A DNA stretch of 64,000 bases from Denitrobaculum tricleocarpae (GTDB lineage: Bacteria > Pseudomonadota > Alphaproteobacteria > Kiloniellales > Kiloniellaceae). The stretch spans positions 558,001-622,000 of the forward strand of contig NZ_ML660053.1 of NCBI RefSeq assembly GCF_007004665.1, written 5' to 3'. Made by a program: the position numbers and the translations under genes. Of the stretch, positions 21,669 through 56,051 are shown piece after piece; position 1 is the first letter of the stretch, and every line of letters starts with the position of its first letter. The notes under the pieces were generated by a model, which saw only the letters and a list, made by a program, of their open reading frames with translations, was not told the DNA's origin and ran no database searches.

Positions 21669-22484
21669 TCAGTCGTCCGAGACCAGTTTAAGCCGTTTGG
21701 GGTCGTGTCCGGGCACCAGCCGCTCGGCCCAGGGGCCATCCGGCATTTCATTGGCCAGCTGCTTGAGATGCTCGTTCCACCAGACCCGCTGATCGCGAAG
21801 GTCGTCGTAATCGTAATGCGCCTGGCGCCAGCCGGAATCTTCACTGGAGAGTGTCAGGACGTCGATCGGGAAACCGACGTCCGCGGCTGAGAGCCGGGTC
21901 GAATCAAACGAGAGATAGGCGAGCTTGAGCGCCGTCAGCATAGGGGTGTCGTAGGTGAGCCCTCTATCGAGGATCGGTTTGCCGTAGGCTGTGGAGCCGA
22001 TCGATAAGTAAGGGGTCCGCTGCCCGATCTCGATCCAATTGCCCTCGGGATAGACCAGATAGGCGGTTGGTGTGGCGTCGTCGCTGAGCTGACCGGCGAC
22101 GATGGCATGGAGATTAAAGCTGAGTTCAGATTCCGAAATTGCGCCGCGATCTTCCTCGGCAACCTGCCGAAGGCATCTGGAGTAGATGGCGACCGCATCG
22201 AGCATATTGCGGAGCTTTGGAGCGTCGGGAGACTTTAGATCCCGGTCCAGATAAGACAGGGTCTTGTCGCGCAGGGACCTGAGTCCCGACGTCATGACGC
22301 TGAAGGCCTGTTTGCCCGGAAGTGCCGATCCGGCGGCGGTCGCTGCGACGTTCTGGGCGGTATTTTGCGTGGGTCCGTGCAGAGAAACTTTGCTGGCATT
22401 GGTGACCTGATTGCCACTGGTAATGCGGCCGTCGGCGAGGAGTAACAGGCCTTCTTCTACCTTGATGGCCAGGCAATAGGTCAT
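21669..22484 (-). CDS. Anbu (ancestral proteasome beta subunit-like) protein
   Basis: A 271-residue Ntn-hydrolase of the Anbu/COG3484 family, bacterial proteasome/HslV relatives that form open-ring assemblies. It begins MTYCLAIKVEEGLLLLADGR. Removal of Met exposes Thr as the expected N-terminal nucleophile, and LLLLADGRITSG matches the proteasome-type second strand. Elsewhere in bacteria Anbu genes normally sit with a transglutaminase-like protein, an alpha-E protein and an ATP-grasp protein; none is adjacent here. Proteolytic activity and substrates of the family are poorly established. The upstream region shares the long spacer that leads to the phasin gene. Confidence 0.85.
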   Translation of the reverse strand: MTYCLAIKVEEGLLLLADGRITSGNQVTNASKVSLHGPTQNTAQNVAATAAGSALPGKQAFSVMTSGLRSLRDKTLSYLDRDLKSPDAPKLRNMLDAVAIYSRCLRQVAEEDRGAISESELSFNLHAIVAGQLSDDATPTAYLVYPEGNWIEIGQRTPYLSIGSTAYGKPILDRGLTYDTPMLTALKLAYLSFDSTRLSAADVGFPIDVLTLSSEDSGWRQAHYDYDDLRDQRVWWNEHLKQLANEMPDGPWAERLVPGHDPKRLKLVSDD

Positions 22485-22623
22485 ATCTGCGTCCGTAAGA
22501 TCCCAGGGTTTTTAGTCCGAACCGCGCGAATCCAAACCTTTTCAGAAGTGGATGCGCAGACACAAGCTTTGGACTGATCCACTGCGTCAGTCGAGTCCAA
22601 AAAATGATTTACGCGTTTTTTAT

Positions 22624-22809
22624 GTGCAGTTTTTTGCTGCAACCGCGAGATCTTTCACAATTATGGTTAAAAAACTGTAACCAAAAACCACGTAGGATCC
22701 TTTTTTCTGTATGGGAAATCGGTCGCATTTCATGCAAATGCTGCACTGCAAAATATTTCTTGACACACGAGAAGCGTTAACTATCTTACACCTGTGTTGC
22801 ACTGCAACA
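22624..22809 (+). promoter_or_regulatory. Phasin promoter with PhaR-like TGCA operators
   Basis: The 430-bp Anbu-phasin spacer contains no gene but a clear regulatory block. A sigma-70-like pair is TTGACA (22760-22765) and TATCTT (22782-22787), spaced 16 bp. Just downstream, near the expected transcription start, is the perfect odd palindrome TGTTGCACTGCAACA (22795-22809). A related CTGCACTGCA lies before the -35 box (22741-22750) and TTGCTGCAA at 22634-22642. TGC-rich sites of this kind are known targets of the PHA regulator PhaR. Repression relieved by PHA granules is the inferred mechanism. Confidence 0.62.
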
Positions 22810-22915
22810 TTCCGAAATTTGGAGAATTGAACCGGACGTTTTTTGCGTGCGGTTGTAGTGAGCTACATGGCGGCAGGCGCCATGCATTTATCACCTGGAT
22901 CTTAGGAGTTTAAAG

Positions 22916-23458
22916 ATGGCTGTTAAGAAGACGACCGCTTCCACCACCGCAAAAGAAGCGACCAAATCCGCAGAAGCTGCAGTCTCTGCAGGTAAAGAAG
23001 TTGTAGAATCCGTTGTGAAGGCCGGCTCCGAAGCTGCTGCCAAGGGCTACGAGCAGGCCGTTGCCATGACCAAGGAGCAGGTCGAGCGCACGTCCAGTGC
23101 CGTATTTCAGGGTTACGACGAAATCGCCACTCTGGGCAAAGACAACATCGACGCTTGCGTCGAAAGCAGCAACATCGTTGCCAAGGGTTTCGAAGACCTC
23201 AGCAAGGCCTGGATGAGTTTCGCACAGAGCTCCATGGACGCGCAGGTTGCGATCTCCAAGGAGTTGCTTGGCGTGAAGACTTTCCGTGAGGCTGTCGACA
23301 TGCAGACCTCATACACCAAGAGCAGCTTCGACACAGCGATGGCTGAGAGTGCCAAATTGACCGAACTTTCGGTCAAGGTTGCCAATGCGGCCATGACCCC
23401 GATCCAGGATCGCGTCAATGTCATGACCGACAAGCTGTTGAAGCCTGTTGCTGCCTAA
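22916..23458 (+). CDS. Phasin family protein (PHA granule-associated)
   Basis: A 180-residue, nearly all-helical amphipathic protein rich in Ala, Lys, Ser and Val and lacking Trp-rich or enzyme motifs except one FEDLSKAWMSFAQSSMDAQV helix typical of the Phasin_2 family. The N-terminus is a Lys/Thr/Ala-rich tail (KKTTASTTAKEATKS). It should coat polyhydroxyalkanoate granules in the cytoplasm. AGGAG lies about eight bases before the ATG, a strong ribosome site. Regulation by a PhaR-type repressor is suggested by the upstream TGCA palindromes. No PHA synthase or depolymerase gene is in the window. Confidence 0.87.
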   Translation: MAVKKTTASTTAKEATKSAEAAVSAGKEVVESVVKAGSEAAAKGYEQAVAMTKEQVERTSSAVFQGYDEIATLGKDNIDACVESSNIVAKGFEDLSKAWMSFAQSSMDAQVAISKELLGVKTFREAVDMQTSYTKSSFDTAMAESAKLTELSVKVANAAMTPIQDRVNVMTDKLLKPVAA

Positions 23459-24078
23459 AGCGCCAAGTGTTTAGCCCCGGCATTTGACAGTTGGGGCGCC
23501 GTCGCGGCGGGACCGAATTTTAGGGCACCGTCGCGACGGGACCGATTTCTCCCATCGGTTAAGAGGGGGCGGGGCCGTTTGGCGGGTCCTACGCAAGACG
23601 TCCGCGACGTCGTTCACCACGAAGTGGCGGATGGGAAAAAGCGAGCCGTCCCGGTGGGACTAAGTCGAAGTAACGCGAGCCCACTTCGTGTCGACAGACG
23701 TCGCTTGTCCCTGAATATGCGCAGCATGTTTGATTGCCTCAGACCATGCCTGGGATACGCAGCGAGGACGATTTGATCCTGAAGATTATGTGTCCCTACA
23801 TGTCACCCACCGAATTTGCAATATGTGCAATTATAGATTGTTCTGCTTCCTGCGTCGCGCCAACACAGGGACGGCTATATTTCAGCCGCGTTTGTATTGC
23901 ATTGGATTCACTCACAGGTTAAGGGTTTGACCAGCAAGCTCTGCTGGCGGAAATCTTATGGCTGTTGGTCTGGTAACGAGCCTCAGTCAATACATTCCGG
24001 GAGGTTTCGTGCGGCACTTTATTGGGTAATAAATAAAGTAAGCGTTGCTAAATGCCCATTGGGAGATATGCGCGTTCC
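23459..24078. other. Gene-free spacer with tandem hairpins between phasin and pse cassette
   Basis: About 620 bp with no credible gene. The first half is unusually structured. Two imperfect 28-bp direct repeats (23493-23520 and 23522-23549, 23 of 28 identical) contain the near-palindrome CCGTCGCGGCGG and the perfect palindrome CCGTCGCGACGG. Next is a hairpin ACCGAT-N7-ATCGGT (23541-23559). Then comes a long stem: GCGACGTC-N6-CACGAAGTGG (23604-23627) pairs with 23681-23704, with an inner hairpin GTCCC-GGT-GGGAC (23648-23660). The second half, 23705-24078, is AT-richer and must hold the cassette promoter, which I could not pin down. Confidence 0.55.
23604..23704. repeat. Long interrupted stem-loop
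   Basis: Two 24-nt arms, 23604-23627 and 23681-23704, are complementary in their outer 8 and inner 10 positions, with a symmetrical 6-nt internal loop. The 53-nt apex carries its own perfect 5-bp hairpin. The structure could be a small RNA, a remnant of a miniature inverted-repeat element, or a recombination or protein-binding site. A simple terminator is unlikely because no T-run follows. Confidence 0.55.
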
Positions 24079-25158
24079 ATGACAACACCTGTCATTCCTG
24101 CCTCGCCGATTTGCATCGATGGACGCACTATCGGACCCGTTGAGAAGCCTTTCATCATCGCGGAGATGTCTGGTAATCATAACGGAGATATTGAGCGGGC
24201 ATTTTGCCTCTTGGAAGAGGCACATCGAGCGGGTGCCGACGCGGTCAAGCTTCAAACCTATACCGCGGATACGATAACTATCGATCATGACGGCCCCGAG
24301 TTCAGTGTTGAGGGCGGTTTGTGGGATGGTCGTAGACTTTATGAGCTTTATCAGGAGGCGCACACGCCTTGGGATTGGCATCCTGCCATTTTCGCGAAGG
24401 CCCGCGACCTCGGCATTACGATCTTTTCCTCTCCATTCGATCCGACAGCTGTAGACTTTTTAGAAGGGCTTGATGCGCCGGCTTACAAAATAGCTTCCCC
24501 AGAATTGATCGATATTCCGCTGATCCGCTATGTTGCGAAGACTGGCAAGCCGATGATCATGTCCACGGGCATGGCTACCCTCGACGAAATCGGTGATGCA
24601 GTCGATGCGGCCAGGACAGGCGGATGCACAGAGCTAGTCTTGCTCCATTGTACAGCCGCTTACCCGGCGCTTCCACAGGACGCAAATCTGGCATCAATTG
24701 CCGATTTGGCAGACCGTTTTGGCGTTCTGATTGGCTTATCCGATCACACAACGGGAACTGTTGTGGCCACTACGGCTATTGCACTGGGTGCAGTGGTGAT
24801 CGAGAAGCATTTTACACTTGCAAGGGCTGATGGTGGTGTTGACAGTGCATTTTCCTTGGAGCCGTCCGAGCTTAAAACTCTTGTAAAAGATGCGCACACC
24901 GCCCATTCGTCCATTGGACTGCCGACGCATGGACCAATTGAATCGGAAGCGTCTGTTCTAAAGAACCGCCGATCACTTTATGTCGTAGCCCCAGTCCGAA
25001 AGGGTGAAGTCTTCGGACCTGAAAATATCCGGTCCATCCGCCCGGCGAAGGGGCTGCCTCCTAAAATGCTTGACGAGGTTTACGGACGTCGTGCGACGCG
25101 TGACTTATCGTTTGGTGAACCACTTTCCACCGATATGATTGATGGCCGGTCGGACTGA
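24079..25158 (+). CDS. pseI: Pseudaminic acid synthase (NeuB family, PseI type)
   Basis: Condenses a 2,4-diacetamido-trideoxyhexose with phosphoenolpyruvate to give a nine-carbon nonulosonate. The sequence has the NeuB-family start FIIAEMSGNHNGDIERAF (NHNG rather than sialate-type NHDG fits PseI), DAVKLQTYTADTITID, FSSPFDPTAVDFLE, YKIASPELIDIPLI and the C-terminal SAF antifreeze-like domain (SLYVVAPVRKGEVFGPENIR). I prefer the ATG at 24079, with GGGAGA upstream; an in-frame ATG at 24052 is possible. It heads a seven-gene cassette with almost no gaps and a lower GC content than its surroundings. Pse versus a related nonulosonate is not certain. Confidence 0.88.
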   Translation: MTTPVIPASPICIDGRTIGPVEKPFIIAEMSGNHNGDIERAFCLLEEAHRAGADAVKLQTYTADTITIDHDGPEFSVEGGLWDGRRLYELYQEAHTPWDWHPAIFAKARDLGITIFSSPFDPTAVDFLEGLDAPAYKIASPELIDIPLIRYVAKTGKPMIMSTGMATLDEIGDAVDAARTGGCTELVLLHCTAAYPALPQDANLASIADLADRFGVLIGLSDHTTGTVVATTAIALGAVVIEKHFTLARADGGVDSAFSLEPSELKTLVKDAHTAHSSIGLPTHGPIESEASVLKNRRSLYVVAPVRKGEVFGPENIRSIRPAKGLPPKMLDEVYGRRATRDLSFGEPLSTDMIDGRSD

Positions 25159-25159
25159 C

Positions 25160-25879
25160 ATGTCGGTCGATACAGCAGACGCTTCCACGAAAAAAAAACT
25201 TGCCGTTATTCCTGCGCGCGGCGGCTCCAAGCGTATTCCACGCAAGAATATCCGCAGTTTTCGAGGTCGGCCGATAATTGCGTGGTCAATTGATGCTGCG
25301 CTCGGATCCGGTCTTTTTGACGAGGTGATGGTAAGCACCGACAGCGAGGAGATTTCCAATACGGCCCGTGAGTGTGGTGCATCGGTTCCATTTTTGCGTT
25401 CATCCAAGACCTCCGATGATCATGCGACCACCTCAGATGTTTTACTGGAGGTCCTTGGTTGCTATGGTGAAAGGGGCCAGCAGTTTGACGTCGCCTGCTG
25501 TTTGTATCCGACAGCACCGTTTGTCACTTCGAACGCGTTGACCGATGGCCTTAGGCAGCTTGAAATCGGAAGCTTCGATGTGGTCATGCCCGTGACACGC
25601 TTCGACTATCCGATATGGAGATCGCTGAAGATGCTCCAGGGCGGCAAAATTTCTCTGAATTTCCCCGAGAATCTTAACGCGCGGTCGCAGGACCTGCCGC
25701 CAGCCTTTCACGATGCTGGCCAGTGGTATTGGTTTCGTATTGCTGAATTCCTCCGCGAAAAGGTTTTGATGGGGTCTAACACAGGAGCGGTCGAGTTGCC
25801 TTCCAGTGAAGTACAAGACATAGATACACTGGACGATTGGGTTTTGGCAGAAATGAAACATGAGCGGATGATGTCGTGA
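25160..25879 (+). CDS. pseF: CMP-nonulosonate (pseudaminate) cytidylyltransferase
   Basis: Activates the nonulosonate with CTP to the CMP-sugar used by glycosyltransferases. The nucleotidyltransferase motif AVIPARGGSKRIPRKNIR is at the N-terminus. It is followed by VMVSTDSEEISNTARECGA, LYPTAPFVTSNAL and the Mg-binding end VQDIDTLDDWVLAE typical of NeuA/PseF proteins. The stop of pseI lies one base before the chosen ATG at 25160; an in-frame ATG at 25142 would add six residues. The last codons overlap the methyltransferase start by one base (TGATG). Confidence 0.88.
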   Translation: MSVDTADASTKKKLAVIPARGGSKRIPRKNIRSFRGRPIIAWSIDAALGSGLFDEVMVSTDSEEISNTARECGASVPFLRSSKTSDDHATTSDVLLEVLGCYGERGQQFDVACCLYPTAPFVTSNALTDGLRQLEIGSFDVVMPVTRFDYPIWRSLKMLQGGKISLNFPENLNARSQDLPPAFHDAGQWYWFRIAEFLREKVLMGSNTGAVELPSSEVQDIDTLDDWVLAEMKHERMMS

Positions 25880-26772
25880 TGGACAGGCGTTTGCAAAGGC
25901 ATGAGTACGGCTTCCTTGAGCTTGTTAAGCCTCCGAACGAGGACGAACTCACCAAGTATTATGCCGATAAGTATTACCAGTCCGAACAGGGAAATTATCG
26001 CAACCGCTATTCGCCCGAGGAGCATGCGGTAATCAATCTGCGTATTAAACTTCGAGCGACACAGGCTGACCACCTTCGAGGCACAAATGACCCGGGACGT
26101 CTATTGGACGTCGGATGCGGCGAGGGATTTGTATTGTCGGCTTATGAGGCAAATGGATGGGATGTCGAGGGGATCGATCACAGCATCGAGGGTGTCAGGG
26201 GCATGAACCCTGATCAGTTGAAGAATGTCAGGCAGGGTAACCTGTTCAGGCTACTCGAAGACTGTGTCGCTGCTGGTTCCGCTTACGATATTGTTTGGCT
26301 GGGAAATGTGTTGGAGCATGTAAGGAACCCTGTGGACTTGATGCGTTCGATCCGTGCGATCGTTAAACCTTCCGGCCTTTTAGTGGCGACGGTACCAAAT
26401 GACGGCACCCCTTATCATGAAGAGCTTTTCGACAGCGGCGCAATTCCCGATCGTTTTTGGATCGCAATCCCAGATCACCTGTCCTACTTCACGCGTGAAA
26501 GTCTAGCGCGGACAGCGGAGGCGACGGGCTGGATGGTTCGCAAAATGCAGGGCGATTTCCCGATTGACCTGTTTTTAAGTCACCCAGGTTCGAATTACGT
26601 TGCAGACCGGGCGCAGGGCGGGTCAGCGCATTCTGCGCGACTGACCCTAGAGGCCATGATCGGCCGTGCTGGAACCGACGCGGCGAACGAGTTCTACACC
26701 GCGCTGGCGGGCGTTGGATTGGGTCGAAACCTTACCGCCTATCTGGCACCAAACAAAGAGAACACGCTGTGA
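25879..26772 (+). CDS. Class I SAM-dependent methyltransferase
   Basis: About 297 residues. A short N-terminal region (YGFLELVKPPNEDELTKYY) resembles the lead-in of sugar C- or O-methyltransferases. The SAM-binding motif LLDVGCGEGF follows near residue 78, with the acidic partner VEGIDHS and the post-motifs IVWLGNVLEHVRNPVDL and LKNVRQGNLF. The YDIVWLGNVLEHV pattern is that of the Methyltransf_23 (UbiG-like) group. The gene overlaps pseF by one base and the next methyltransferase by four (GTGA). Acting on the nonulosonate or its precursor is inferred from position only. Confidence 0.8.
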   Translation: MDRRLQRHEYGFLELVKPPNEDELTKYYADKYYQSEQGNYRNRYSPEEHAVINLRIKLRATQADHLRGTNDPGRLLDVGCGEGFVLSAYEANGWDVEGIDHSIEGVRGMNPDQLKNVRQGNLFRLLEDCVAAGSAYDIVWLGNVLEHVRNPVDLMRSIRAIVKPSGLLVATVPNDGTPYHEELFDSGAIPDRFWIAIPDHLSYFTRESLARTAEATGWMVRKMQGDFPIDLFLSHPGSNYVADRAQGGSAHSARLTLEAMIGRAGTDAANEFYTALAGVGLGRNLTAYLAPNKENTL

Positions 26773-27524
26773 CTGAAGAAAATGTAGTCAAAACCCTTGT
26801 AGGCTCTACACCGAATGAGGTGGACGCCAAACTGGGCCTCGCAACGAAACTAAGGAACAGCCGTATTCCGGACGCCGAAATCCTGGACAATTTGGGCCTC
26901 TATCTTACGCGCCAAACCCTGTCGCGCATCGCTTTCATGCAAAAAATCTATGAATTGATTGTGCCGGTCCATGGTGTCGTGATGGAGTTTGGTGTGAGGT
27001 GGGGGCAAAACATGTCCCTTTTCTCGAACCTCCGGGGCATTCATGAACCCTTCAACTACAATCGACGGATCATCGGCTTCGATACCTTTGAAGGTTTCCC
27101 GTCAGTGGACGAGCGCGACGGCCGTCTCGTCAGCGCGGGCGACTACGGTGTTGCGACCGATTGGAAGGAAGACCTCGATGGTATCCTGGACTTCCATAAT
27201 GCGAACGCGCCGATCCCACATAAGAAGAAGTTTGACCTCGTCGTTGGAGACGCAACAAAAACGTTACCGGATTATCTCGAAAAGAACCCGGAGACCATTG
27301 TCGCGCTCGCCTATTTCGATTTCGACATCTATGCGCCGACCCGTGATTGTCTCGAGGCATTGTTACCTCACCTGACCAAGGGCAGTGTTCTGGCTTTCGA
27401 CGAATTGAATACACCGGAGTTTCCAGGAGAAACACTTGCTCTCAAAGAAGTATTGGGCTTGTCACGTTATGCTATCCGTCGGGAAGCTTTCAGTCCGCTG
27501 ACGTCCTATTTGGTGATAGAATGA
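26769..27524 (+). CDS. TylF/MycF-like O-methyltransferase
   Basis: A 251-residue protein beginning with GTG inside the preceding stop. It has the TylF-family pattern: MEFGVRWGQNMSLFSNLRG (SAM site), IIGFDTFEGFP, a WKEDLDGIL segment, FDLVVGDATKTLPDYL, and a metal-binding acidic end LAYFDFDIYAPTRDCLEALL with LAFDELNTPEFPGE. Members of the family O-methylate deoxysugars with a divalent metal (for example macrocin O-methyltransferase). Automated pipelines often give such proteins unrelated names. A role in methylating the nonulosonate made by this cassette is the natural inference. Confidence 0.8.
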   Translation: MTEENVVKTLVGSTPNEVDAKLGLATKLRNSRIPDAEILDNLGLYLTRQTLSRIAFMQKIYELIVPVHGVVMEFGVRWGQNMSLFSNLRGIHEPFNYNRRIIGFDTFEGFPSVDERDGRLVSAGDYGVATDWKEDLDGILDFHNANAPIPHKKKFDLVVGDATKTLPDYLEKNPETIVALAYFDFDIYAPTRDCLEALLPHLTKGSVLAFDELNTPEFPGETLALKEVLGLSRYAIRREAFSPLTSYLVIE

Positions 27525-28114
27525 CGCTTCAGGCTGGGGAAAACGTTGGGTCTGGAACATATCGTGTTATGCCAAATTCTGAGTTGCTCTCGGGCAGCTT
27601 GTGTATGTCGGCGATCCAGCCTGAGCATATCGAATTGGTCCGGCAATGGCGGAACGCTCAGATGGACGAGCTTCGGCAGTCGCACCCGATTACACCAGAA
27701 GAGCAGGAAAAATTTTTCAAGGAAAATGTCTGGCCGGACAAGGCCGTAGACAAGCCTGCCCAAATTCTACTCGCAATCAAGGAGGGGCGCAGACTGATCG
27801 GCTACGGCGGTCTGGTGTATATCAATTGGGAGCATCGTCGAGCGGAGGTTTCCTTTCTTCTATCTGAGGAAGTCGAAGCTTTGCCCGACCAAAGATCACA
27901 GGTTTTTTTGGATTTTTTAAATTCGATCAAAGCGCTATCCTTCGTCGATCTTGGTTTGAACCGGCTCACGACTGAGACTTTCGCCCACAGGACACGTCAT
28001 ATCGAAACGCTTGAAACGGCCGGTTTCAAGCGTGAAGGCACCCTACGTGAACATATCGTTATGAACGGGAAATACGCGAACTCAATTTTGCATGCTGTTA
28101 TTGCGAGTGATTAG
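27521..28114 (+). CDS. GNAT N-acetyltransferase (PseH-like)
   Basis: A 197-residue GNAT-fold protein of the RimJ/PseH type. The central motif region reads LIGYGGLVYINWEHRRAEVS, and the C-terminal half ends in LETAGFKREGTLREHIVMNG, the usual end of sugar and ribosomal-protein acetyltransferases. In pse pathways PseH acetylates N4 of the UDP-amino-sugar; this gene could do that or acylate the finished nonulosonate. The ATG at 27521 overlaps the previous stop by four bases (ATGA). The upstream frame continues open but is the shadow of the methyltransferase gene. Confidence 0.75.
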   Translation: MTLQAGENVGSGTYRVMPNSELLSGSLCMSAIQPEHIELVRQWRNAQMDELRQSHPITPEEQEKFFKENVWPDKAVDKPAQILLAIKEGRRLIGYGGLVYINWEHRRAEVSFLLSEEVEALPDQRSQVFLDFLNSIKALSFVDLGLNRLTTETFAHRTRHIETLETAGFKREGTLREHIVMNGKYANSILHAVIASD

Positions 28115-28126
28115 GTGATCGAAAGA

Positions 28127-30049
28127 ATGATCGGAAGACGCGTTTTTGTCTCTGGCGGCGCAGGTGTCATTGGTCTGGAGCTAGTGCCTAGGCTTGTACG
28201 TGCAGGCGCGACTGTGCTCGTTGGCGATCTCAAACCACGCCCTGCGAGTTTTGAGAGTTGCGTGATTTACAGGCAGGGAGATCTTAATGCGCTCTCACAA
28301 GCCGAGTTAGATGCATTCGCGCCAGATGTCTTTATACATCTTGCCGCCACTTTCGAACGCTCGACGGAAAGCATAGAGTTCTGGGGCGAAAACTTCCGGC
28401 ACAATGTTATGTTGAGCCATCACTTGATGACCCTTGGCCGGCGATGCCCGACCTTGCGGCGCGTCGTTTTTGCGTCGTCTTATCTTATCTATGATCAGTC
28501 TCTGTACCAGTTTGATACTGAACAAAAAGCTGGTGTGTGCCTCAATGAGGAACATCCTATTTCCCCCCGAAACCTCACGGGTATGGCCAAATTAGCTCAT
28601 GAAACAGAGCTCAAATTCCTTGACGGTTTCGAAGAGTATCCGTTCACATCCATCTGCGTCAGAATCTTTCGTGGCTATGGTCGAAACTCCCGCGACGTGA
28701 TTTCAAGGTGGGTACGCGCGCTCATAGCGGGCGAGCCGATTACTGTTTACCGTCGTGAAGGTTTATTCGACTACACCTACGCTGCCGATAGCGCTGAGGG
28801 CCTCTTGCGACTGGCTCAAGCCGATCATGCAACGGGTGTCGTGAACCTTGGTACCGGCCGGTCTCGTCGGGTAAGCGATGTTGTGACAACTCTGCAGCAA
28901 CATTTTCCGGATGCTCAAGTAAACGAGGTAGAAAGCGACATTCCATTTGAAGCGTCTCAGGCTGATGTATCGAAACTCCGTTCGATCTTGAATTGGGTTC
29001 CAGCCTACGACTTGGAAGACGCCATTCAAGAGATTGTCGATTTTGAACGTGCCCAGTGCAGATCGCAAAAAACTGGCTCGGCCCAAAGGTTAGGCAATGT
29101 CTTAATAACCTCTGCTGCGCGGAAGGCGCCGCTTGTCCGAGCGATGAAAAGTGCGGCGCAACGAATTGGATCTGAGATTGAGATCATTGCGGGCGATATC
29201 GACCCCGACGCCCCCACCCAACATGTCGCCGATGGCTTCTGGCCGATGCCGCGCACCGAGGTGGGCGAGCTGCCGGCTCTTCTATCCGGTTGTATCGCGC
29301 GGGGTATTCGCGCCATCTTACCTACACGCGATGGCGAGCTTACGTTCTGGGCAGAAAATCGTGCCGCCTTTGCGGAACAGGGAATAGAGGTAATCGTATC
29401 CAAATCAGACTCTGTGGCGTGCTGTCTCGATAAACTGGCTTTTGCCGAATTTGGTATTGCAAACGATCTGCCAACTATCCCGGCTTCTATTAAGCCTGAA
29501 GATATCGATGCCGATCGATTTGTTGTAAAAGAGCGCTTTGGGGCCGGTTCGCGCAGTATTGGCCTTAATCTTGAACTGGACGCCGCCAGAGAGCACGCCA
29601 AAACGCTTGATGCGCCTATTTTCCAAGCCTATTTCCAAGGCTTGGAAATTAGCATCGACGCTTGGATTAATCGCGACGGCACACCGGCCGGCCTGGTTCT
29701 GCGTCGGCGTGATCGTGTCGTGAACGGCGAATCTCAAACCACTACGACCTTCCGGGACCCTCAAATTGAAGCTGAGGCCTGGCGTATTCTTGCCGCCTTT
29801 GATCTCTATGGCCCGGTTGTCATGCAAGCCATTGTAATCAACGGGTCAACGCTAGAGATTATTGAAATCAATGCGCGCTTTGGTGGTGCATCTACGACTT
29901 CGCTGGCTGTCGGGCTCGACATTTTCTATTGGAGTATCACGACAGCCTTTGGAATGGCCGAAGGGCAAATTGATTTCCTGCGCAGCGACCATGAAGTCCG
30001 TCAAATTCGCCTTCCCTCAGATACTCTGATCTATGATCCTGATATTTGA
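28127..30049 (+). CDS. Fused NAD-dependent epimerase/dehydratase and ATP-grasp protein
   Basis: About 640 residues with two catalytic modules. Residues 1-315 form an extended SDR: RRVFVSGGAGVIGLELVPRL (nucleotide site), DVFIHLAATFERS and a GLFDYTYAADSAEGLLRLAQ substrate loop. The usual YxxxK is altered: NLTGMAKLAHETELKF has no Tyr four residues before the Lys. Residues 325-640 form an ATP-grasp module of the short CarB-like kind: VLITSAARKAPLVRAMKSA, AILPTRDGELTFW, FVVKERFGAGSRSIG and the Mg-binding IIEINARFGGAST. The ATG at 28127 has AGGTGA eight bases upstream; a GTG at 28115 is possible. The following HAD gene overlaps it by 17 bp. The module may ligate an acid or amino acid onto the sugar (inference). 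Confidence 0.82.
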   Translation: MIGRRVFVSGGAGVIGLELVPRLVRAGATVLVGDLKPRPASFESCVIYRQGDLNALSQAELDAFAPDVFIHLAATFERSTESIEFWGENFRHNVMLSHHLMTLGRRCPTLRRVVFASSYLIYDQSLYQFDTEQKAGVCLNEEHPISPRNLTGMAKLAHETELKFLDGFEEYPFTSICVRIFRGYGRNSRDVISRWVRALIAGEPITVYRREGLFDYTYAADSAEGLLRLAQADHATGVVNLGTGRSRRVSDVVTTLQQHFPDAQVNEVESDIPFEASQADVSKLRSILNWVPAYDLEDAIQEIVDFERAQCRSQKTGSAQRLGNVLITSAARKAPLVRAMKSAAQRIGSEIEIIAGDIDPDAPTQHVADGFWPMPRTEVGELPALLSGCIARGIRAILPTRDGELTFWAENRAAFAEQGIEVIVSKSDSVACCLDKLAFAEFGIANDLPTIPASIKPEDIDADRFVVKERFGAGSRSIGLNLELDAAREHAKTLDAPIFQAYFQGLEISIDAWINRDGTPAGLVLRRRDRVVNGESQTTTTFRDPQIEAEAWRILAAFDLYGPVVMQAIVINGSTLEIIEINARFGGASTTSLAVGLDIFYWSITTAFGMAEGQIDFLRSDHEVRQIRLPSDTLIYDPDI

Positions 30050-30704
30050 CCTGGACGACACACTCTATGATGAGCGCAGCTTTGTTTTAAGCGGTTTGCT
30101 TTGTGTCGCCCAACACGGCTCCCAAGAATTTGGGCTTGATCCCGAAGCATCTTTTTCTTTCATGAAGCAGGTTCTTGAGCATGAGGGGCGGGGCAGCATC
30201 TTCGATCGATGGCTCGCTCAGCATGGGATTGCGAACCGCAAGCGCGTGGCTGCCTGCGTGAAGATCTACCGGCACCATCATCCGAATATCACGCTACCAT
30301 CGGCTCATCGGGAAATGCTTCATCGTCTGCAGCTACTATACCCGCTTTATCTTGTGACTGACGGACACAAGGTCGCGCAGCAACGTAAGGTAGAGGCACT
30401 TGGAGTTGGGACTTTTTTTCGTCGCGTATTCATCACTCACCGATTTGGTATCGCTCATGCCAAACCGTCGCTGTATTGCTTTGAGCGTATCAAGCAAGCT
30501 GAAGGTGTGGACTGGCCGCAGCTTCTGTATGTTGGCGATAATCCCTCCAAGGATTTCGTAAACCTTAACAAGGTCGGCGCCGTAACCGTCAGAATTCACA
30601 CCGGCATACACGCTCAAGCAGTGGTCGAAACTGAGTTCGATGCAACCCATCACATCGACCGACTGAGCGATTTCGAAACTCTTCTTGCACATATAACTGA
30701 TTAG
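30033..30704 (+). CDS. HAD-superfamily phosphatase
   Basis: A 223-residue HAD hydrolase with all four motifs: IFDLDDTLYDE (nucleophile D6, acid/base D8), LVTDGHK (motif II), a Lys in IAHAKPSLYCFE (motif III) and LYVGDNPSKDF (motif IV). The helical cap fits subfamily I. The ATG lies inside the 3' end of the epimerase/ATP-grasp gene (17-bp overlap), implying tightly coupled expression. In nonulosonate pathways a phosphatase removes the phosphate from the 9-phosphate intermediate, or here may serve the ATP-grasp step; both are inference. Confidence 0.82.
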   Translation: MILIFDLDDTLYDERSFVLSGLLCVAQHGSQEFGLDPEASFSFMKQVLEHEGRGSIFDRWLAQHGIANRKRVAACVKIYRHHHPNITLPSAHREMLHRLQLLYPLYLVTDGHKVAQQRKVEALGVGTFFRRVFITHRFGIAHAKPSLYCFERIKQAEGVDWPQLLYVGDNPSKDFVNLNKVGAVTVRIHTGIHAQAVVETEFDATHHIDRLSDFETLLAHITD

Positions 30705-31057
30705 GGGTGGCCCCCTCCTCAAAGCGAAAGGCCCGGAGGCATTCGTATTTCAGGGGCTGCCTAAGGCGTTCCACCGCACCAGCGGCGGTTCTGGTCGGGA
30801 CTTGGCCTCTCAGAATTCAAGAAGTGATTTTCGGCATCCGTTCAGACGTTTTTCCGATATCGCAGCCTTGTGCAACTCGCAGTATCATAGTTTCCCGCGA
30901 TGCGGTCTGACAGCCCTACGCTGCGACCAGGTGACTGCTTGCTGCGTCTTCGACGGCCCCATCAATGGTAAGTGCTTCTGCGCTTATGTCGAACGGCAGT
31001 TCGTTCCGGTTCCGTTGCCTGGTGATGCTGTTGTCTTTGTGGGTTCTGGCGCAGGCG
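30705..31057. other. Intergenic region after the pse cassette
   Basis: About 350 bp between the convergent HAD and serB genes. A weak GGGGTGGCCCC hairpin (30706-30716) lies directly after the HAD stop but has no T-run. I see no gene, tRNA or insertion-sequence end here. Confidence 0.4.
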
Positions 31058-31954
31058 TCAGTTTACGAATTCTTCCCGCCGGTAACCCTGAAAGTAGAGC
31101 AAGGCAGTTAGATCACCATGATCAATCTGAAAGGCCGCAGCCTCCCTGACCACTGCTTTGCCATGGTATGCGGCGCCCAGGCCCGCGACGGCCAGCATGG
31201 CGAGATCGTTCGCGCCGTCACCGACCGCACACACCGCCTGACTGTCGATGCCTTCCCGCCGAGCCAGGTCCTCCAGCGCTTCCTGTTTTGCCTCGCGGCC
31301 CAGGATCGGTTCCGCCACCCGCCCGGTCAGACGCCCATTCTCGATGATGAGTTCATTGGCGCGATCTTCATGGAATCCGCAGAGATCGCGGATCTGAGAC
31401 GTGAAGAAGGTAAAACCACCCGATACCAGAGCCGTGTAGGCCCCATGTGCGCGCATGGTTTGCACCAGTTTCCGCGCGCCCGGGTTGAGGGTCATGAGCT
31501 TACTGAGGCCATGCAGGTTTGTCTCGGACACATCCCTTAACAGCGCCACTCTGCTCCGCAGAGACTCTTCAAACGCCAGCTCGCCCGCCATCGCCCGTTT
31601 GGTAACCTCGGCGATCTTAGGCCCGATCCCCAGAACCTCGGCGAGTTCGTCGATCATCTCCTGCGCGATGATGGTGGATTCCATGTCCGCGACCAGGAGC
31701 GCTTTGCGACGCCCTTCTGCTTGCTGGACCGCGTGATCAATCGAGAGACCCGAGAGAATTGGCCCCACAGCTTGTCTTGCCACCTCGATTTCCAGTCTGT
31801 CAAAGGCCAGATCGCAGGCGTGCCCCTGTGCCAGCCAATCGGGCGCAGCGACAGCGGCCCCGGCTGTGGTGAGGGCCTGTTGCAGCATTTCGACCGTTGA
31901 GGCTTCGAGTGGTGCCGTATCGGACCCGGCGACCAGGGTGAGTACATTGGACAT
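31058..31954 (-). CDS. serB: Phosphoserine phosphatase
   Basis: Last step of serine synthesis: phosphoserine to serine. The protein (298 residues from the ATG at 31954) has an N-terminal ACT-like region and a C-terminal HAD domain: LLVADMESTIIAQEMIDELA, the helical cap, LVSGGFTFFTSQI (motif II), the Lys in GREAKQEAL, and AVGDGANDLAML (motif IV). The catalytic motif reads DMEST, with Glu where most SerB proteins have the second Asp. An in-frame TTG at 31990 would lengthen it but lacks support. It is divergent from miaA. Confidence 0.92.
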   Translation of the reverse strand: MSNVLTLVAGSDTAPLEASTVEMLQQALTTAGAAVAAPDWLAQGHACDLAFDRLEIEVARQAVGPILSGLSIDHAVQQAEGRRKALLVADMESTIIAQEMIDELAEVLGIGPKIAEVTKRAMAGELAFEESLRSRVALLRDVSETNLHGLSKLMTLNPGARKLVQTMRAHGAYTALVSGGFTFFTSQIRDLCGFHEDRANELIIENGRLTGRVAEPILGREAKQEALEDLARREGIDSQAVCAVGDGANDLAMLAVAGLGAAYHGKAVVREAAAFQIDHGDLTALLYFQGYRREEFVN

Positions 31955-32084
31955 GACGCCGGTATAGCGTCCGGATCCTCGGGAGTTCAAGCCATAAGCT
32001 CACTGACGCTGCAGGCGTTGCGATTGCGCTGCAGGGGCAGACTTGATACCTCAATGCGGTCTAAAGGAAGAAGTCCGAAGCCTC

Positions 32085-33089
32085 ATGTCCGCTCAGCCCG
32101 ACCAGAGTGAGAATCTCAAGTGCCTGCAAACCGCCCTGGCCAGTCGTCCGGTTGTGCTGGTTGGCGGCCCCACGGCCAGCGGCAAGTCCGGTCTTGCGGC
32201 GGATGTTGCGGCGGCCTTCAACGGCGTTGTCATCAATGCGGACTCAATGCAGGTCTATCGGGAACTCGATATCATTACCGCGCGGCCTAGTGCGGACGAG
32301 TTGACCAAAGCGCCGCACCGGCTCTTTGGCGTTCTCTCCGGCGCGGAGCGCTGCTCGGCGGCGCGCTGGCGCGCGCTGGCTCTGGCCGAAATTGAAGCGG
32401 CCTTCAAAGCGGGGCGATTGCCGATCGTCGTTGGCGGGACCGGCCTTTACCTGCGGACGCTGGAAGAGGGGCTCGCGCCGGTGCCGGAGATATCGGAGGA
32501 GGTTCGCCAGCAGACCTGGCGAGATTTCGAACAGCTCGGGGCGGAGGCTTTTCATCGCGAACTGGCACGGCGCGATCCGGAGATGGCGGGGCGTTTGAAT
32601 GTCGGCGATACGCAACGATTGCTTCGGGCCTGGGAGGTCCTCGCGGCGACCGGAACGTCGCTTGCCGAGTGGCAGGCGCGGCAGGCAGACAACGCCGCGC
32701 AATTGGACCCCGGATTGTCTTTGCTGAAACTTGCCGTCATTCCGCCACGCGAGGTGATCTATGAGCGTTGCAACGCGCGCTTCGAGGCCATGACGGCAGA
32801 GGGGGCGATCGAGGAGGTAGAGGCCCTCTTAAAGCTTGGCCTCGATCCGGCCCTTCCGGTCATGAAAGCCATCGGCGTCCGGGAGTTCGGGGCCTATCTG
32901 GCGGGGGAACTCAGCCTGGAAGCGGCGGTTTCCAAGGCGCAGCAGGAGACACGGCGTTACGCAAAGCGGCAAATGACGTGGCTGAGGAATCAGTATGCTT
33001 CTAAAAACGTCATCGAAACGCAATATTCGGAAAGTTTAAGTCCAAAAATATTTAATATTATTCGTCAGTATCTGTTGACCCTGCCGTGA
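32085..33089 (+). CDS. miaA: tRNA dimethylallyltransferase
   Basis: Adds a dimethylallyl group to N6 of A37 in tRNAs reading U-starting codons. The P-loop VVLVGGPTASGKSGLA, the DSMQVYRELDIITARP substrate site, PHRLFGVL, VVGGTGLYLRTL and the C-terminal KAIGVREFGAYLAGELS plus RRYAKRQMTWLRNQ are all diagnostic. I chose the ATG at 32085, giving 334 residues; the frame extends to a TTG at 32043. About 160 bp separate it from ilvB. Confidence 0.94.
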   Translation: MSAQPDQSENLKCLQTALASRPVVLVGGPTASGKSGLAADVAAAFNGVVINADSMQVYRELDIITARPSADELTKAPHRLFGVLSGAERCSAARWRALALAEIEAAFKAGRLPIVVGGTGLYLRTLEEGLAPVPEISEEVRQQTWRDFEQLGAEAFHRELARRDPEMAGRLNVGDTQRLLRAWEVLAATGTSLAEWQARQADNAAQLDPGLSLLKLAVIPPREVIYERCNARFEAMTAEGAIEEVEALLKLGLDPALPVMKAIGVREFGAYLAGELSLEAAVSKAQQETRRYAKRQMTWLRNQYASKNVIETQYSESLSPKIFNIIRQYLLTLP

Positions 33090-51584: not shown

Positions 51585-52367
51585 CTACAGTCCTTTCGGA
51601 TGAGCCAGGAATTCCTCGATGACCTCAGGCGGCGCCTTCGCATAGTCGGAGACTCTGCTGACGCTCTGACCGGTCAGGCGTTTCAGAGTGACCGCCATTT
51701 CCGCCATCTTCACCGCGATCGGAATGCCGTTGATGACGGGAGCTTCGTCCACAAGGTGATTGTGGTACTTGGCAAACAGCAGCATCGGAATCCCGCCGCC
51801 GGGGATCAATACATCCGTTCCCTGCGCCACTAGAGGTCTGGCCTGTTCCTCGAACAGGGCTTTGACCTGATCCGCGCGTTCGTTCGAACTGTATGCCTCG
51901 AGGATCTGACCCGGCTCGAAAGTCATGGCATGCACACCTGAAATGCGTTCTTTCAGGCCATACTTTCCAATCTGATGATGAAACCAGGGAATGAAGCGCG
52001 GGTTGATCGTTACGATGCCGATCCGCTGTCCGAGCTGGCAGCAGTAGAGCATAGAGGCTTCACCCAGAGCGATAACGGGAATATCAACTGCGGCACGGAC
52101 TTCGTAGAGTCCCGCGTCCTGAAAGTGCCCGACGACAAATGCGTCATAGCCCTCCCGCTCGGCCTGAACGGCATTACAGATCATTTCCCGCGCGCAGCGG
52201 AATTCCACAAGAGGGTGCGCGTAGGAATCAAAAGGCGTGATGCCGTTGATATCGACCGTCGTGCCCGGTGCAACGATCTCATCCAGATGCCGTCCCAGCA
52301 CATCCCAATAGGACTTGCCGTTGTCATAGTCGACATAGCTTTGATACCAGATCTTGATTGAGGTCAT
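51585..52367 (-). CDS. Asp/Glu/hydantoin racemase-fold protein lacking the usual cysteines
   Basis: About 260 residues with the two-domain Asp/Glu racemase fold: YDAFVVGHFQDAGLYEVRAA, VDIPVIALGEASMLYCCQLG, RIGIVTINPRFIPWFHHQIG and TDVLIPGGGIPMLLF. In racemases one catalytic Cys sits in the first strand end and another in the LGCAG-like motif. Here these positions are H81 in VVGHFQDAG and G190-G192 in IPGGGIP. It may therefore be a related isomerase or hydrolase, not a cysteine-dependent racemase. ATG at 52367. It is convergent with dctM and probably belongs to the same catabolic locus. Confidence 0.75.
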   Translation of the reverse strand: MTSIKIWYQSYVDYDNGKSYWDVLGRHLDEIVAPGTTVDINGITPFDSYAHPLVEFRCAREMICNAVQAEREGYDAFVVGHFQDAGLYEVRAAVDIPVIALGEASMLYCCQLGQRIGIVTINPRFIPWFHHQIGKYGLKERISGVHAMTFEPGQILEAYSSNERADQVKALFEEQARPLVAQGTDVLIPGGGIPMLLFAKYHNHLVDEAPVINGIPIAVKMAEMAVTLKRLTGQSVSRVSDYAKAPPEVIEEFLAHPKGL

Positions 52368-52626
52368 GATGGTGCTTATCCCGGATCTCACCTGTTGCTC
52401 AATGATATGATTAAAGCCCCAATGGCAGGTTGCGAGAAGACCTTAATCACCGCGCGGCCCCGGTTCACGGAGAACATACAGGAAAAAAATTCTCTCAGAT
52501 AACAGCAGTTGTATCGAGATAAGGCTATAAACTTAATACGATCTTCAGGATATTGGGTTAGGCTTCGCTTCAGTTGCGCGTATTGCGTTCGCTGCTGGAC
52601 TGCCCATTTGCGGTTTCCGTGACGCG

Positions 52627-52968
52627 ATGGCCCCGAAGGACTGCGTCGGTATCGTGAGACTCTTTATTTTCTCTTTTTGCTGTTTTGCCGTTGGTGGCTT
52701 TTTTGCCGCCCTGGCGGCTGAGCATCATACTGTTTTGCAAAACAACAAGTCTTTCGACCGCGAGGAAATTGTGATTGCGATCGGCGACAGCGTTGAGTTT
52801 AAGAACGCCGACCAGGTAAAGCACAACATCCAGATTCAAGAGCTGGGTTACAATAGCGGAATTCAGCAGCCTGGCAGCGGGTCGAGCCTCCGCTTCGATG
52901 AGAGCGGCCGGTTCAAAGTCCGCTGCGGCATTCACTCAAAAATGAAAATGACGGTCCTGGTAGAGTAA
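52627..52968 (+). CDS. Amicyanin-like cupredoxin
   Basis: Periplasmic type 1 copper protein of about 113 residues. A signal peptide (LFIFSFCCFAVGGFFAALAA) is followed by a beta-barrel segment. Copper ligands are inferred as H66 (QVKHNIQ), C100, H103 and M106 in RCGIHSKMK. The C-x2-H-x2-M spacing is that of amicyanin rather than azurin or plastocyanin. It should carry electrons, but no methylamine dehydrogenase is nearby. Starts at ATG 52627 or, with AAGGA upstream, GTG 52654. Confidence 0.8.
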   Translation: MAPKDCVGIVRLFIFSFCCFAVGGFFAALAAEHHTVLQNNKSFDREEIVIAIGDSVEFKNADQVKHNIQIQELGYNSGIQQPGSGSSLRFDESGRFKVRCGIHSKMKMTVLVE

Positions 52969-53006
52969 GGTTCCGGTACTCCTAGAGTTCCGGGAAGCCC
53001 GAGCTT

Positions 53007-53855
53007 TCAGGTGGTTTTGGGCCGGCTTCTGGATCTGCCGAACGTGCGCCGGCGCCGGCGCCTTTTCATCTTAGGTTCGTCTCCAGAACCCGGTTCGGGA
53101 GGTTGCGTTGGATCCCGCTGCCTGAGTTTGGCAAAGACCGCGTCCAGGAGCGTATAGAGCACTAGTAAACCCAGACCCCAAAAGAAGATAGTCTTGAGTT
53201 TGAACGGGCGCTCATCAGTGGTTCCGATAAGGTTTGGTTCCGGGGGGGCGTGGTCCGAATCCAGGTTCCCGTTGCTGGCCATTTTGATGCTGTGGTCGGG
53301 CACTGCGAGGTCACTGGTGTAAATGGCAATCTCAGAAGAGAGTTCAGCTGACTGTGTTCTTACAAAGTCCAGGATTGGGATGCTTGTTGGACCCGGCATG
53401 TTGACAATATCGAGGCCAAGATCAGGCACTGCGTTAATGATCAACTGCTGATACTCACCGCCGATGACCACCTCGGGTTCACGGTTTTGAACAGAAGGAC
53501 GATTTTGCCGTTTCAACGCGGCTTCTATCATCTCCCAGGGAATCTCGGGCACGTCCTGTGAGTTTGCGTCTTGGTTCTCGGGCTTTCCCGGGCTTGATCC
53601 ACTTCGCGCCGGACTTTTCGTAAGTGATCTGCGGGGGGCCGAAGTTGTCAGTTCGGAAGGCGAAACGCTTGCAGGCCGCTCCGGCCTGTCGCCAGTCTGA
53701 GCACTATAGGGTGCCGGGCTTGATCCCACCGTCGTGGTGCCGCTGGACTGCTGGCTGGTGGTAATGGGGTTCGCGTGAGCCAGGGAGCAGGCGAGAAGTA
53801 TAGCCGAAAACCCACAAATGGCGGTTTCCAAACTCCTCCCTGATCCTAAACGCAT
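53007..53855 (-). CDS. Membrane protein with low-complexity periplasmic region and arginine-rich tail, unknown
   Basis: A 282-residue protein of unknown function, clearly translated: GGAGG lies six bases before the ATG. It has a signal peptide (about 1-28, SAILLACSLAHA), a Ser/Thr/Pro-rich region (about 30-100), a structured-looking stretch (100-200, VVIGGEYQQLIINAVPDLGL), one membrane helix (about 222-241, TIFFWGLGLLVLYTLLDAVF) and a cytoplasmic tail. The tail holds a run of six arginines (265-270) followed by RSRSRPK. Type I topology is predicted. The basic tail could bind nucleic acid, lipids or a partner (inference). Confidence 0.68.
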   Translation of the reverse strand: MRLGSGRSLETAICGFSAILLACSLAHANPITTSQQSSGTTTVGSSPAPYSAQTGDRPERPASVSPSELTTSAPRRSLTKSPARSGSSPGKPENQDANSQDVPEIPWEMIEAALKRQNRPSVQNREPEVVIGGEYQQLIINAVPDLGLDIVNMPGPTSIPILDFVRTQSAELSSEIAIYTSDLAVPDHSIKMASNGNLDSDHAPPEPNLIGTTDERPFKLKTIFFWGLGLLVLYTLLDAVFAKLRQRDPTQPPEPGSGDEPKMKRRRRRRTFGRSRSRPKTT

Positions 53856-54221
53856 AACTGCCTCCTATTTAGCCCATAGCAGCTTTACGATTCGAAATGT
53901 GACCATGCAAAACGTGGGGCTTCGCCACTTACCCGGCGCGGTAAGTGCTCCACACCAAGCAATTTGTAGGCCATCTTTTTACTTCTATAATTTTCAAGAG
54001 GTTATGCTCATGCTCCGGGTTTTGTTTGTGAGCACTGTATAGTATACCGACAGTTAACCTTGGACGGGGCATCGAACGGGAAGAGTCAAAAATGAATTGT
54101 GTCAATTACTTGCGGTAGTTGTTATTTGTATACGAATTATGTAAGAAAAATCGACATATTTAGCTATATTTTCGGGTAGTTCGCCGGCCCGGATTAATCG
54201 GGGCGTTGCAGCTTCCGCGCT
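53856..54221. other. AT-rich intergenic region
   Basis: About 365 bp, noticeably richer in A and T than the surrounding genes, upstream of the arginine-tail protein and downstream of the PAS_5 gene (both minus strand). It should contain the promoter of the former. I see no gene, repeat or RNA. Confidence 0.4.
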
Positions 54222-54686
54222 TCAGGAAAACGCCATCTGATAGATGATCTTGTCGACAGTTATGCCGTCAGAGGCGAGGGGAACGCCCAATGCAGAGTAG
54301 TGTTTGTAATCTCTGGACGTCCATGTAAGGGGTTGATTCTCGACGTAGATAGGCTGCCGATTTTCCACCATCCACTGGGCGCGGCCAATGATTTGGGAGG
54401 TGTTCGACATTTCATCAAGAAAGTTTCCGGTTGTGTCCCTGCCGGTTTCTTCGACGATACCGGTGCCAACCAGACGAATCCGGAAGCGGAGGTTGTCGCC
54501 GTTCCTGATGACGTCGAACAGGGTGATGTAGGGCAGAAAGGCTGCCAGCATCTCGGCCGGATCGAAATCGGAGCGCGCCGGCAAATGGCCCTCGGCCGTA
54601 ATCTTACCGCTCCATAAGCTATGAAGGTGTTTAAGCGGCGGACAGAGGTTTTCCGGTGGTCGGAAGCTGGCGAGAGACGGCGTCAT
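54222..54686 (-). CDS. PAS_5-domain protein
   Basis: A 154-residue single-domain protein of the PAS_5 family, common in Rhodospirillales-type alphaproteobacteria. Visible family pattern: GHLPARSDFDPAEMLAAFLP, then YITLFDVI, LRFRIRLVGTGIVEETGRDT and the C-terminal YKHYSALGVPLASDG. AAGGAG lies eight bases before the ATG. No output domain is attached. Ligand and partner are unknown. Confidence 0.8.
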   Translation of the reverse strand: MTPSLASFRPPENLCPPLKHLHSLWSGKITAEGHLPARSDFDPAEMLAAFLPYITLFDVIRNGDNLRFRIRLVGTGIVEETGRDTTGNFLDEMSNTSQIIGRAQWMVENRQPIYVENQPLTWTSRDYKHYSALGVPLASDGITVDKIIYQMAFS

Positions 54687-55154
54687 GACATCATCTCCTT
54701 ACCGGTTGCCTCTCGAAGATGTACCATTCGATCCAAAGAGTTCATTCTTCAAACACTGCTGTGCGCTCGGCGCGGACGTCCGAGCTTTGCAAAGCTTCAA
54801 ACCGAGACTGAAGTGCCGATCCTGGTTCCGCCAGCATAGCGCCGGTCCTTCACTGCCATCACCCTTTGATTGTGATCGGTACTTGCTCTGAATCGGTTAA
54901 AACTTCTGAGATTTTCCAGGCAACAGACCGTGGGCAATGATGACACTGTATGTATTAATTATAGGCTCTAAGTTTGAAAGAAATCAAACTCTTATAACTT
55001 GCAATTTATAGAAGAAACTACTTTGGCTTTAGGCTCGTCTATTGCCGGGTGTGGTTCAGTTGACCAATGGTATACAAAGACTTGATGTCACCGAGCAGGT
55101 CTCACGGCCAACAGGGTTAGTTACATATTCGGCGTTGTTACAGGGATTTGAGGG
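54687..55154. other. Intergenic region with a perfect inverted repeat
   Basis: About 470 bp with no credible gene. An inverted repeat AGTTTGA-N6-TCAAACT lies at 54971-54990 in an AT-rich stretch. It could be a regulator site or weak hairpin. Nothing else is recognisable. Confidence 0.4.
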
Positions 55155-55826: not shown

Positions 55827-56051
55827 AAAGCCTTGCGCGCCTGCCAATCCAACGAAGCAGATAAACCTTCCCGTTGGTTCGGGCAAGGAAAGCCATGGAC
55901 GTCCGGGATGTGTTCTTATTGAGGTTTGCGGCCCCTGCGCTGCTTCACCCGGGAATTTGAGCTTGTGCGACGACATCTTTTTGCGCGATTGCAGCGGTCA
56001 CGGAGAGCCGTATAGGATCAACCCTCGGGTGTGGTGAGGGAGTTTAGAGTT

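Follow-up and report, generated by a model that had tools for sequence, protein, structure and literature searches.

Pseudaminic acid (Pse) decorates flagella and surface glycans in many bacteria. The canonical route to it, as described for Campylobacter jejuni and Helicobacter pylori, is PseB-C-H-G-I-F, in which PseG is one of six enzymes (PMC7910423; here and below, papers are cited from those parts of their text that were available). We analysed a 64,000-nucleotide stretch of the Denitrobaculum tricleocarpae genome (contig NZ_ML660053.1, positions 558,001 to 622,000; hereafter the window), in which seven genes at 24079-30704 form a cassette encoding PseI, PseF, two methyltransferases (MT1 and MT2), a GNAT-like protein, a fusion of a short-chain dehydrogenase/reductase (SDR)-like domain to an ATP-grasp domain, and a HAD-family phosphatase. 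We consider it probable that this locus is a horizontally acquired lower half of Pse synthesis that lacks PseG, with the GNAT-like protein acting in place of PseG or in a bypass around it.

A comparable gene set, compared here by gene content, is the flagellin-modification cluster sfmABCDE of Shewanella oneidensis, which includes PseB and PseC homologues without a clear PseH or PseG, a NeuB-domain protein, a methyltransferase and an ATP-grasp protein. Its product is a putative mono-N-acetyl Pse (274 Da) carrying a 236-264 Da moiety with up to two methyls (PMC3765264). PseB and PseC without a clear PseG, an ATP-grasp protein and a methyltransferase are common to both systems. They differ in that SfmA is 31% identical to PseI (N-terminal domain) and in the thiamine pyrophosphate enzyme and reductase of the S. 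oneidensis set, and neither a HAD nor a GNAT protein is described in the available text (PMC3765264). Pse bearing a 2,3-di-O-methylglyceroyl group, linked to Cj1295, is a precedent in C. jejuni for a doubly methylated acyl group on Pse (PMC3068675). Methyltransferases also occur in Pse clusters of Clostridium according to a 2026 paper, in whose available text the word 'grasp' is absent (PMC13317340). In the open-licence PubMed Central literature, as far as its text was available, we found no account of this cassette or of a GNAT-like, PseG-independent route.

The host shares with the canonical pathway PseB, PseC, PseI and PseF, all over their model cut-offs. PseB (545.5 bits) and PseC (489.5 bits) lie on a contig other than that of the cassette. 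Within the cassette, on the + strand, are the Pse synthase PseI (24079..25158; NeuB and SAF domains; TIGR03586, 485 bits against a cut-off of 340), the only PseI copy in the genome, and the CMP-Pse cytidylyltransferase PseF (25160..25879; TIGR03584, 283 bits against 206; Pfam CTP_transf_3). The host differs from the canonical pathway in what it lacks and in what the cassette adds, namely an ATP-grasp, an SDR-like domain, a HAD and two methyltransferases. The UDP-sugar hydrolase PseG has no match at E<=1e-3 anywhere in the genome (completeness 100), and the cassette itself holds no PseB, PseC or PseG. The top match to the PseH model in the host is the GNAT-like protein of the cassette, at 38.6-38.8 bits versus a cut-off of 93.1; this is a weak test, and the model may be insensitive, because it passes its cut-off in 0/35 genomes searched.

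An original prediction, made from the letters of the window and its open reading frames, had assigned the synthase and the cytidylyltransferase to the PseI and PseF types, which the curated cut-offs bear out. It saw in the locus a canonical Pse pathway with methyl and acyl tailoring that was otherwise ordinary. The passing of equivalog cut-offs by PseI and PseF and the conservation of the methyltransferases and ATP-grasp agree with that view, and the probable tailoring genes do travel together. It misses the lack of a detectable PseG and the departure of the GNAT from a normal PseH, and we now regard it as very unlikely.

Comparison with congeners points to a natural replacement. The congener G001 has a PseB and a PseC that share 92% and 88% identity, respectively, with the host proteins, and there (contigs L197 and L198) they are accompanied by PseG, PseI and a cytidylyltransferase-like gene. 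The host PseB/PseC locus has no PseI or PseG match, the cassette being located elsewhere, and its cytidylyltransferase is a broken remnant, of which 57 C-terminal residues were matched (75% identity), in two duplicate copies. Because the congener has the three genes where the host shows loss and remnants, the cassette appears to replace a decayed PseG-type lower pathway. An ABC transporter and glycosyltransferases neighbour the host PseB/PseC, which points to a surface glycan. The same locus contains a tandem duplication (L033:470-3423; C1:755470-758423) in which a methyltransferase gene occurs twice, the PseC C-terminus is repeated in part and the two cytidylyltransferase remnants are found. 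The PseG-type Pse loci of G001 and a further congener, G003, also encode an ATP-grasp protein, distant at 24-25% identity, and a methyltransferase at 32%, so that such genes, which the original prediction set apart from canonical Pse pathways, are not alien to Pse loci as such. In these congener loci (L198 and L196), which have the distant ATP-grasp, a phosphodiesterase adjoins PseG (of the YfcE family in L198); L198 also has a PhyH-like dioxygenase.

The GNAT-like gene (27521..28114, +; Pfam GNAT) lies at the centre of our reading. It overlaps MT2 by 4 bp if the start is the ATG at 27521; the sequence used in the analyses is 27527-28111. An AlphaFold model based on 19 sequences has a pLDDT of 88 and the GNAT fold, with SpeG spermidine acetyltransferases as the nearest solved structures. 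In GNATs the loop after strand 4 is glycine-rich and binds the pyrophosphate of acetyl-CoA. No conserved glycine motif was found in this loop across 21 GNAT-like members, whereas control GNATs from the same genomes have G-x-(G/A/C) there in 19/19 cases, as read by eye from printed segments. This reading replaced a strict regular expression for the CoA loop that was noisy (12/19 controls and 8/19 cassette members matched, many off-site); the automatic loop pattern also matched other sites in controls. Four residues ahead of the GF motif, all 21 members have Leu or Ile, and 18 of the 19 controls have Tyr. A set of polar residues is invariant in 19 members: R42, N43, Q45, R50, Q51, E107, S109, T149, E150, T151, R155, H158 and H189. 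We conclude that the protein is not a normal PseH and that it may replace PseG or join a bypass.

Across genomes, the GNAT-like gene is a marker of PseG-less cassettes. In whole-genome searches, PseG exceeded its cut-off in none of 22 GNAT-like-positive genomes (G000, G004, G010, 17 of the 25 in a second set, G605 and G636), which make up all known positives (24) except L086 and L089. Sub-threshold PseG scores occurred in four of these (G010, G064, G065 and G070), the highest (91 bits) coming from a broken remnant in G065. A Desulfobulbaceae metagenome-assembled genome (MAG) has PseG reduced to a broken N-terminal piece (open piece: model positions 1-72) directly upstream of the GNAT-like gene. 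Of eight genomes that have an ATP-grasp (25-50% identity) but whose fetched locus gave no GNAT-like match, seven contain PseG (G005, G061, G067, G072, G074 and G082 by model, G455 by tblastn).

The same pattern holds within Pseudomonas, taken as an independent sample, where among 298 species PseI was over its cut-off in 111, PseG in 108 (searched at E<=1e-15, with a looser search for G059 alone) and the GNAT-like protein (E<=1e-25) was present in three. All three species with the GNAT-like protein have PseI and none has PseG, versus PseG in 107/108 of the remaining PseI-positive species (Fisher p 1.8e-5). The one exception, G548, has PseI without PseG or the GNAT-like protein and is counted here; its PseI (L217:10184-11269) is isolated, as the fetched 20 kb gave no match to PseB, PseC or PseF. 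In another species, G706, PseG is present and PseI does not reach its cut-off.

These observations raise the question of how the sugar could be released from UDP. We tentatively suggest, while judging it rather doubtful, that the GNAT-fold protein, alone or with the ATP-grasp, is a non-homologous replacement for PseG that either releases UDP from 4-amino- or 4-acylamino-6-deoxy-L-AltNAc or takes part in an acylation-coupled bypass. Alternatively, the GNAT-like protein could be an ordinary PseH (N4-acetyltransferase) that has diverged. UDP would then be removed by some other hydrolase, either unrelated or housekeeping, such as a Nudix-type pyrophosphatase working with the cassette HAD, and PseG would simply be dispensable. 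Consistent with this, the protein is the host's top PseH match and has a SpeG-type GNAT fold, the cassette does carry a phosphatase, with a sugar-phosphate phosphatase among its closest relatives of solved structure, and the PseG-linked GNAT domain of L069 likewise has an unusual loop. However, the glycine-rich CoA loop is conserved in 0/21 members against 19/19 other GNATs, and the HAD coexists with PseG in GNAT-like-negative clusters, so that the HAD alone does not explain the loss of PseG. We think this alternative unlikely, while giving it real weight.

A further alternative, which we consider improbable, is that the protein is an inactive GNAT whose only role is as a binding partner or acceptor-sugar chaperone for the ATP-grasp, with PseG loss a by-product of an altered intermediate. 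The loss of both the CoA loop and the Tyr would fit, as would a fusion of the GNAT-like protein to the ATP-grasp in one Hymenobacter, H. cyanobacteriorum DH14 (L081:10874-12421; this fused protein is not included in alignment A6 or in the motif counts). The invariant polar set, however, points to an active site and away from a scaffold.

Two other cassette components were considered as PseG substitutes and rejected: the HAD as sole substitute, on account of its co-occurrence with PseG, and the SDR-like domain, since the PS662/PS858, G004 and G010 cassettes have no SDR and their genomes no PseG.

Several points weigh against a PseG-independent route through the GNAT-like protein. The association is phylogenetically clustered: the ATP-grasp tree gives one independent pair when starred branches are used and four with all branches, too few for significance, and the three Pseudomonas positives may represent a single transfer. 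In the eight comparison genomes the absence of the GNAT-like gene was judged at fetched loci, of which that of G005 spans only ~3.4 kb, and a Paenibacillus MAG has neither PseG nor the GNAT-like gene at its locus, where the contig is cut at MT1. An incidental G-x-A occurs within the loop in 2/21 GNAT-like proteins. In relatives, Phe occupies the Tyr site of three long PseG proteins that carry a GNAT-like extension (L066, L067 and L069), and L069 additionally has no G-x-G/A loop; loop loss and Tyr loss are therefore not wholly unique to the GNAT-like proteins. The joining of an acyl group by the ATP-grasp, proposed below, draws on family analogy, and an unrelated protein outside the cassette could be the source of PseG activity.

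In the pathway that we favour, host PseB and PseC would form UDP-4-amino-4,6-dideoxy-L-AltNAc. The SDR-fused ATP-grasp would then acylate the free amine with a carboxylic acid, and the HAD would dephosphorylate either the acyl group or the sugar. The GNAT-like protein, having lost its usual hold on acetyl-CoA, would substitute for PseG or work in a bypass. MT2 would O-methylate, perhaps at the sugar-nucleotide stage, and MT1 would methylate a second position. PseI and then PseF would finish the route to a CMP-activated, modified Pse. The predicted order is thus PseB/PseC, acylation by ATP-grasp and HAD, the GNAT-like step, MT2/MT1, PseI and PseF.

The remaining cassette enzymes, all encoded on the + strand, are compatible with such tailoring. 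MT1 (25876..26772; overlaps PseF by 4 bp) is a class I S-adenosylmethionine (SAM) methyltransferase (Methyltransf_23, E 3e-23) with an intact glycine-rich SAM motif, LLDVGCGEG. MT2 (26769..27524; overlaps MT1 by 4 bp) is a CalS11-like sugar O-methyltransferase; its TylF and Methyltransf_24 matches are both under Pfam cut-offs, and a search of profile A1 against the PDB matched CalS11, a TDP-rhamnose 3'-O-methyltransferase, at 231 bits over nearly the full length. The likeness is one of sequence profile, and CalS11 works at the sugar-nucleotide stage (PMC4760980). Methylation of a glyceroyl group by both enzymes, by analogy with C. jejuni, is no more than a possibility, because MT2 resembles a sugar-nucleotide O-methyltransferase.

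The SDR/ATP-grasp fusion (28115..30049; Pfam Epimerase and PylC-like_N/ATP-grasp) abuts the GNAT-like gene and comprises an SDR epimerase-like domain (28115-29080) and a PylC-like ATP-grasp domain (29081-30046). The two domains are fused in 17/17 members examined. The catalytic Tyr of YxxxK is a hallmark of extended SDR epimerases and dehydratases. The SDR-like domain keeps the nucleotide-binding motif, and this Tyr is replaced by Thr in 16/17 members and by Cys in the other; the motif in the cassette is PRNLTGMAK. Nucleotide- and metal-binding residues of the ATP-grasp are conserved. This domain resembles structure 2pn1, a 'carbamoylphosphate synthase large subunit (split gene)', at 73 bits and as the top Foldseek match, and is below the cut-offs of the PRK12767 models; the fused SDR-like domain is extra relative to 2pn1. 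The HAD-family phosphatase (30033..30704; Pfam HAD; overlaps the fusion by 17 bp) has intact motifs (DLDDT, HAKP and DNPxKD), and its nearest PDB sequences are PH1655 and N-acylneuraminate-9-phosphatase. The ATP-grasp and HAD are a separable module, as they occur without an MT1 or MT2 match in the PseG-type cluster of G455, and this module may supply the acyl group. Its attachment and methylation are probably the joint work of the ATP-grasp, the HAD and the two methyltransferases.

The cassette block is a clean insertion that was acquired horizontally and recently. Blastn of window positions 22401-32500 against the congener G002 showed homology that ends at 23458 and restarts at 31054, which defines an inserted segment of 7.6 kb (23459..31053) at the junction of two host genes. 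These are a phasin gene (22916..23458, +), kept in three congeners, and serB (31058..31990, -; TIGR00338, 211 bits, over the cut-off; also supported by synteny). The two are adjacent in 3/3 congeners examined (G001, G002 and G003) and 7.6 kb apart in the window. The GC content is 52.3% in 24079-30704 versus 58.7% in the remainder of the window. At third codon positions GC is 0.51-0.59 in the cassette genes and 0.71 +/- 0.056 in 40 other window genes, hand-picked from the list of open reading frames (z -2.2 to -3.6). A lower GC and a different origin had both been proposed in the original prediction; both are upheld, the former on a full comparison that the 60-bp sample then cited could not by itself provide.

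On the left side of the insert, in non-coding sequence (23491-23548 and 23604-23704), lie a near-tandem repeat of 29 bp and an inverted pair of 24 nt. Repeats shared by the two ends were considered as an insertion signature and set aside, as the single 30-nt pair (left side/HAD end) is 70% complementary and too weak. A plasmid search with the fusion protein returned 286 records, all below 60% identity, with none spanning 80% of the query among the matches listed (30 of 286). A scan of the cassette block for promoters and terminators gave signals no higher than shuffled expectation and was not used. Another lower-GC region (52-54%) at ~52000-56000 of the window is possibly a second island.

All seven reading frames are open, and each gene touches or overlaps its neighbour apart from the 1-bp PseI/PseF gap, so that gene ends agree with the contiguous arrangement first described. 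A cassette that is inert, or that makes a nonulosonate other than Pse, is in our view a slim prospect. Its presence in an inserted block and the location of PseB and PseC on a different contig would be in keeping with that, but the open frames, the intact ATP-grasp and HAD catalytic motifs and MT1 SAM motif, and the similar sets of distant phyla, in which PseB and PseC are linked to the cassette genes, argue for a functional Pse locus.

Gene order is indeed conserved beyond the host, as a check on other genomes proposed with the original prediction found linkage in Pseudomonas, Allopseudospirillum, Hymenobacter and others. G004 and G010, both of the host's family, keep the order PseI-PseF-MT1-MT2-GNAT-ATPgrasp-HAD; their proteins are 47-75% identical to those of the cassette, and the SDR domain is missing. 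The cassette GC there is 67.9% versus 67.0-67.6% in adjoining DNA; given the retained order and the similar GC, the cassette travels and looks longer settled in these genomes. A scan of genome contigs with MT2 found at least 63 loci, and among the 63 matches listed the ATP-grasp is present in 25 and the GNAT-like gene in 19. The latter include Pseudomonas fluorescens PS662 and PS858, Allopseudospirillum, ten Hymenobacter, Desulfobulbaceae, Chitinophaga and Falkowbacteria, and most of these 19 listed loci are single clusters that include PseB, PseC and PseI. One Hymenobacter cluster (L082:7480-9949) has an extra aldo/keto reductase, an SDR and a cytidylyltransferase without a PseF-model match. 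The set is rare: at E<=1e-40 the ATP-grasp was found in 2/398 Pseudomonadota genomes, one being the host. Near the cassette of P. fluorescens PS858 are FlaG, FliD and an MptE-like gene (PseD model 40 bits, below the cut-off), whose family presumably includes Maf flagellin glycosyltransferases. The PseG-type cluster of Rheinheimera sits between flagellin and FliD.

The cassette is a mobile, conserved lower half of the Pse pathway found across phyla. Its occurrence in multiple phyla without a recognisable PseG raises the question of what else frees the sugar from UDP, and the GNAT without a CoA loop provides a genetic marker for such cassettes. The enzymes encoded likely make methylated, acylated Pse derivatives. 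If the proposed role is correct, a GNAT-fold replacement of PseG would constitute a second, PseG-independent route to pseudaminic acids.

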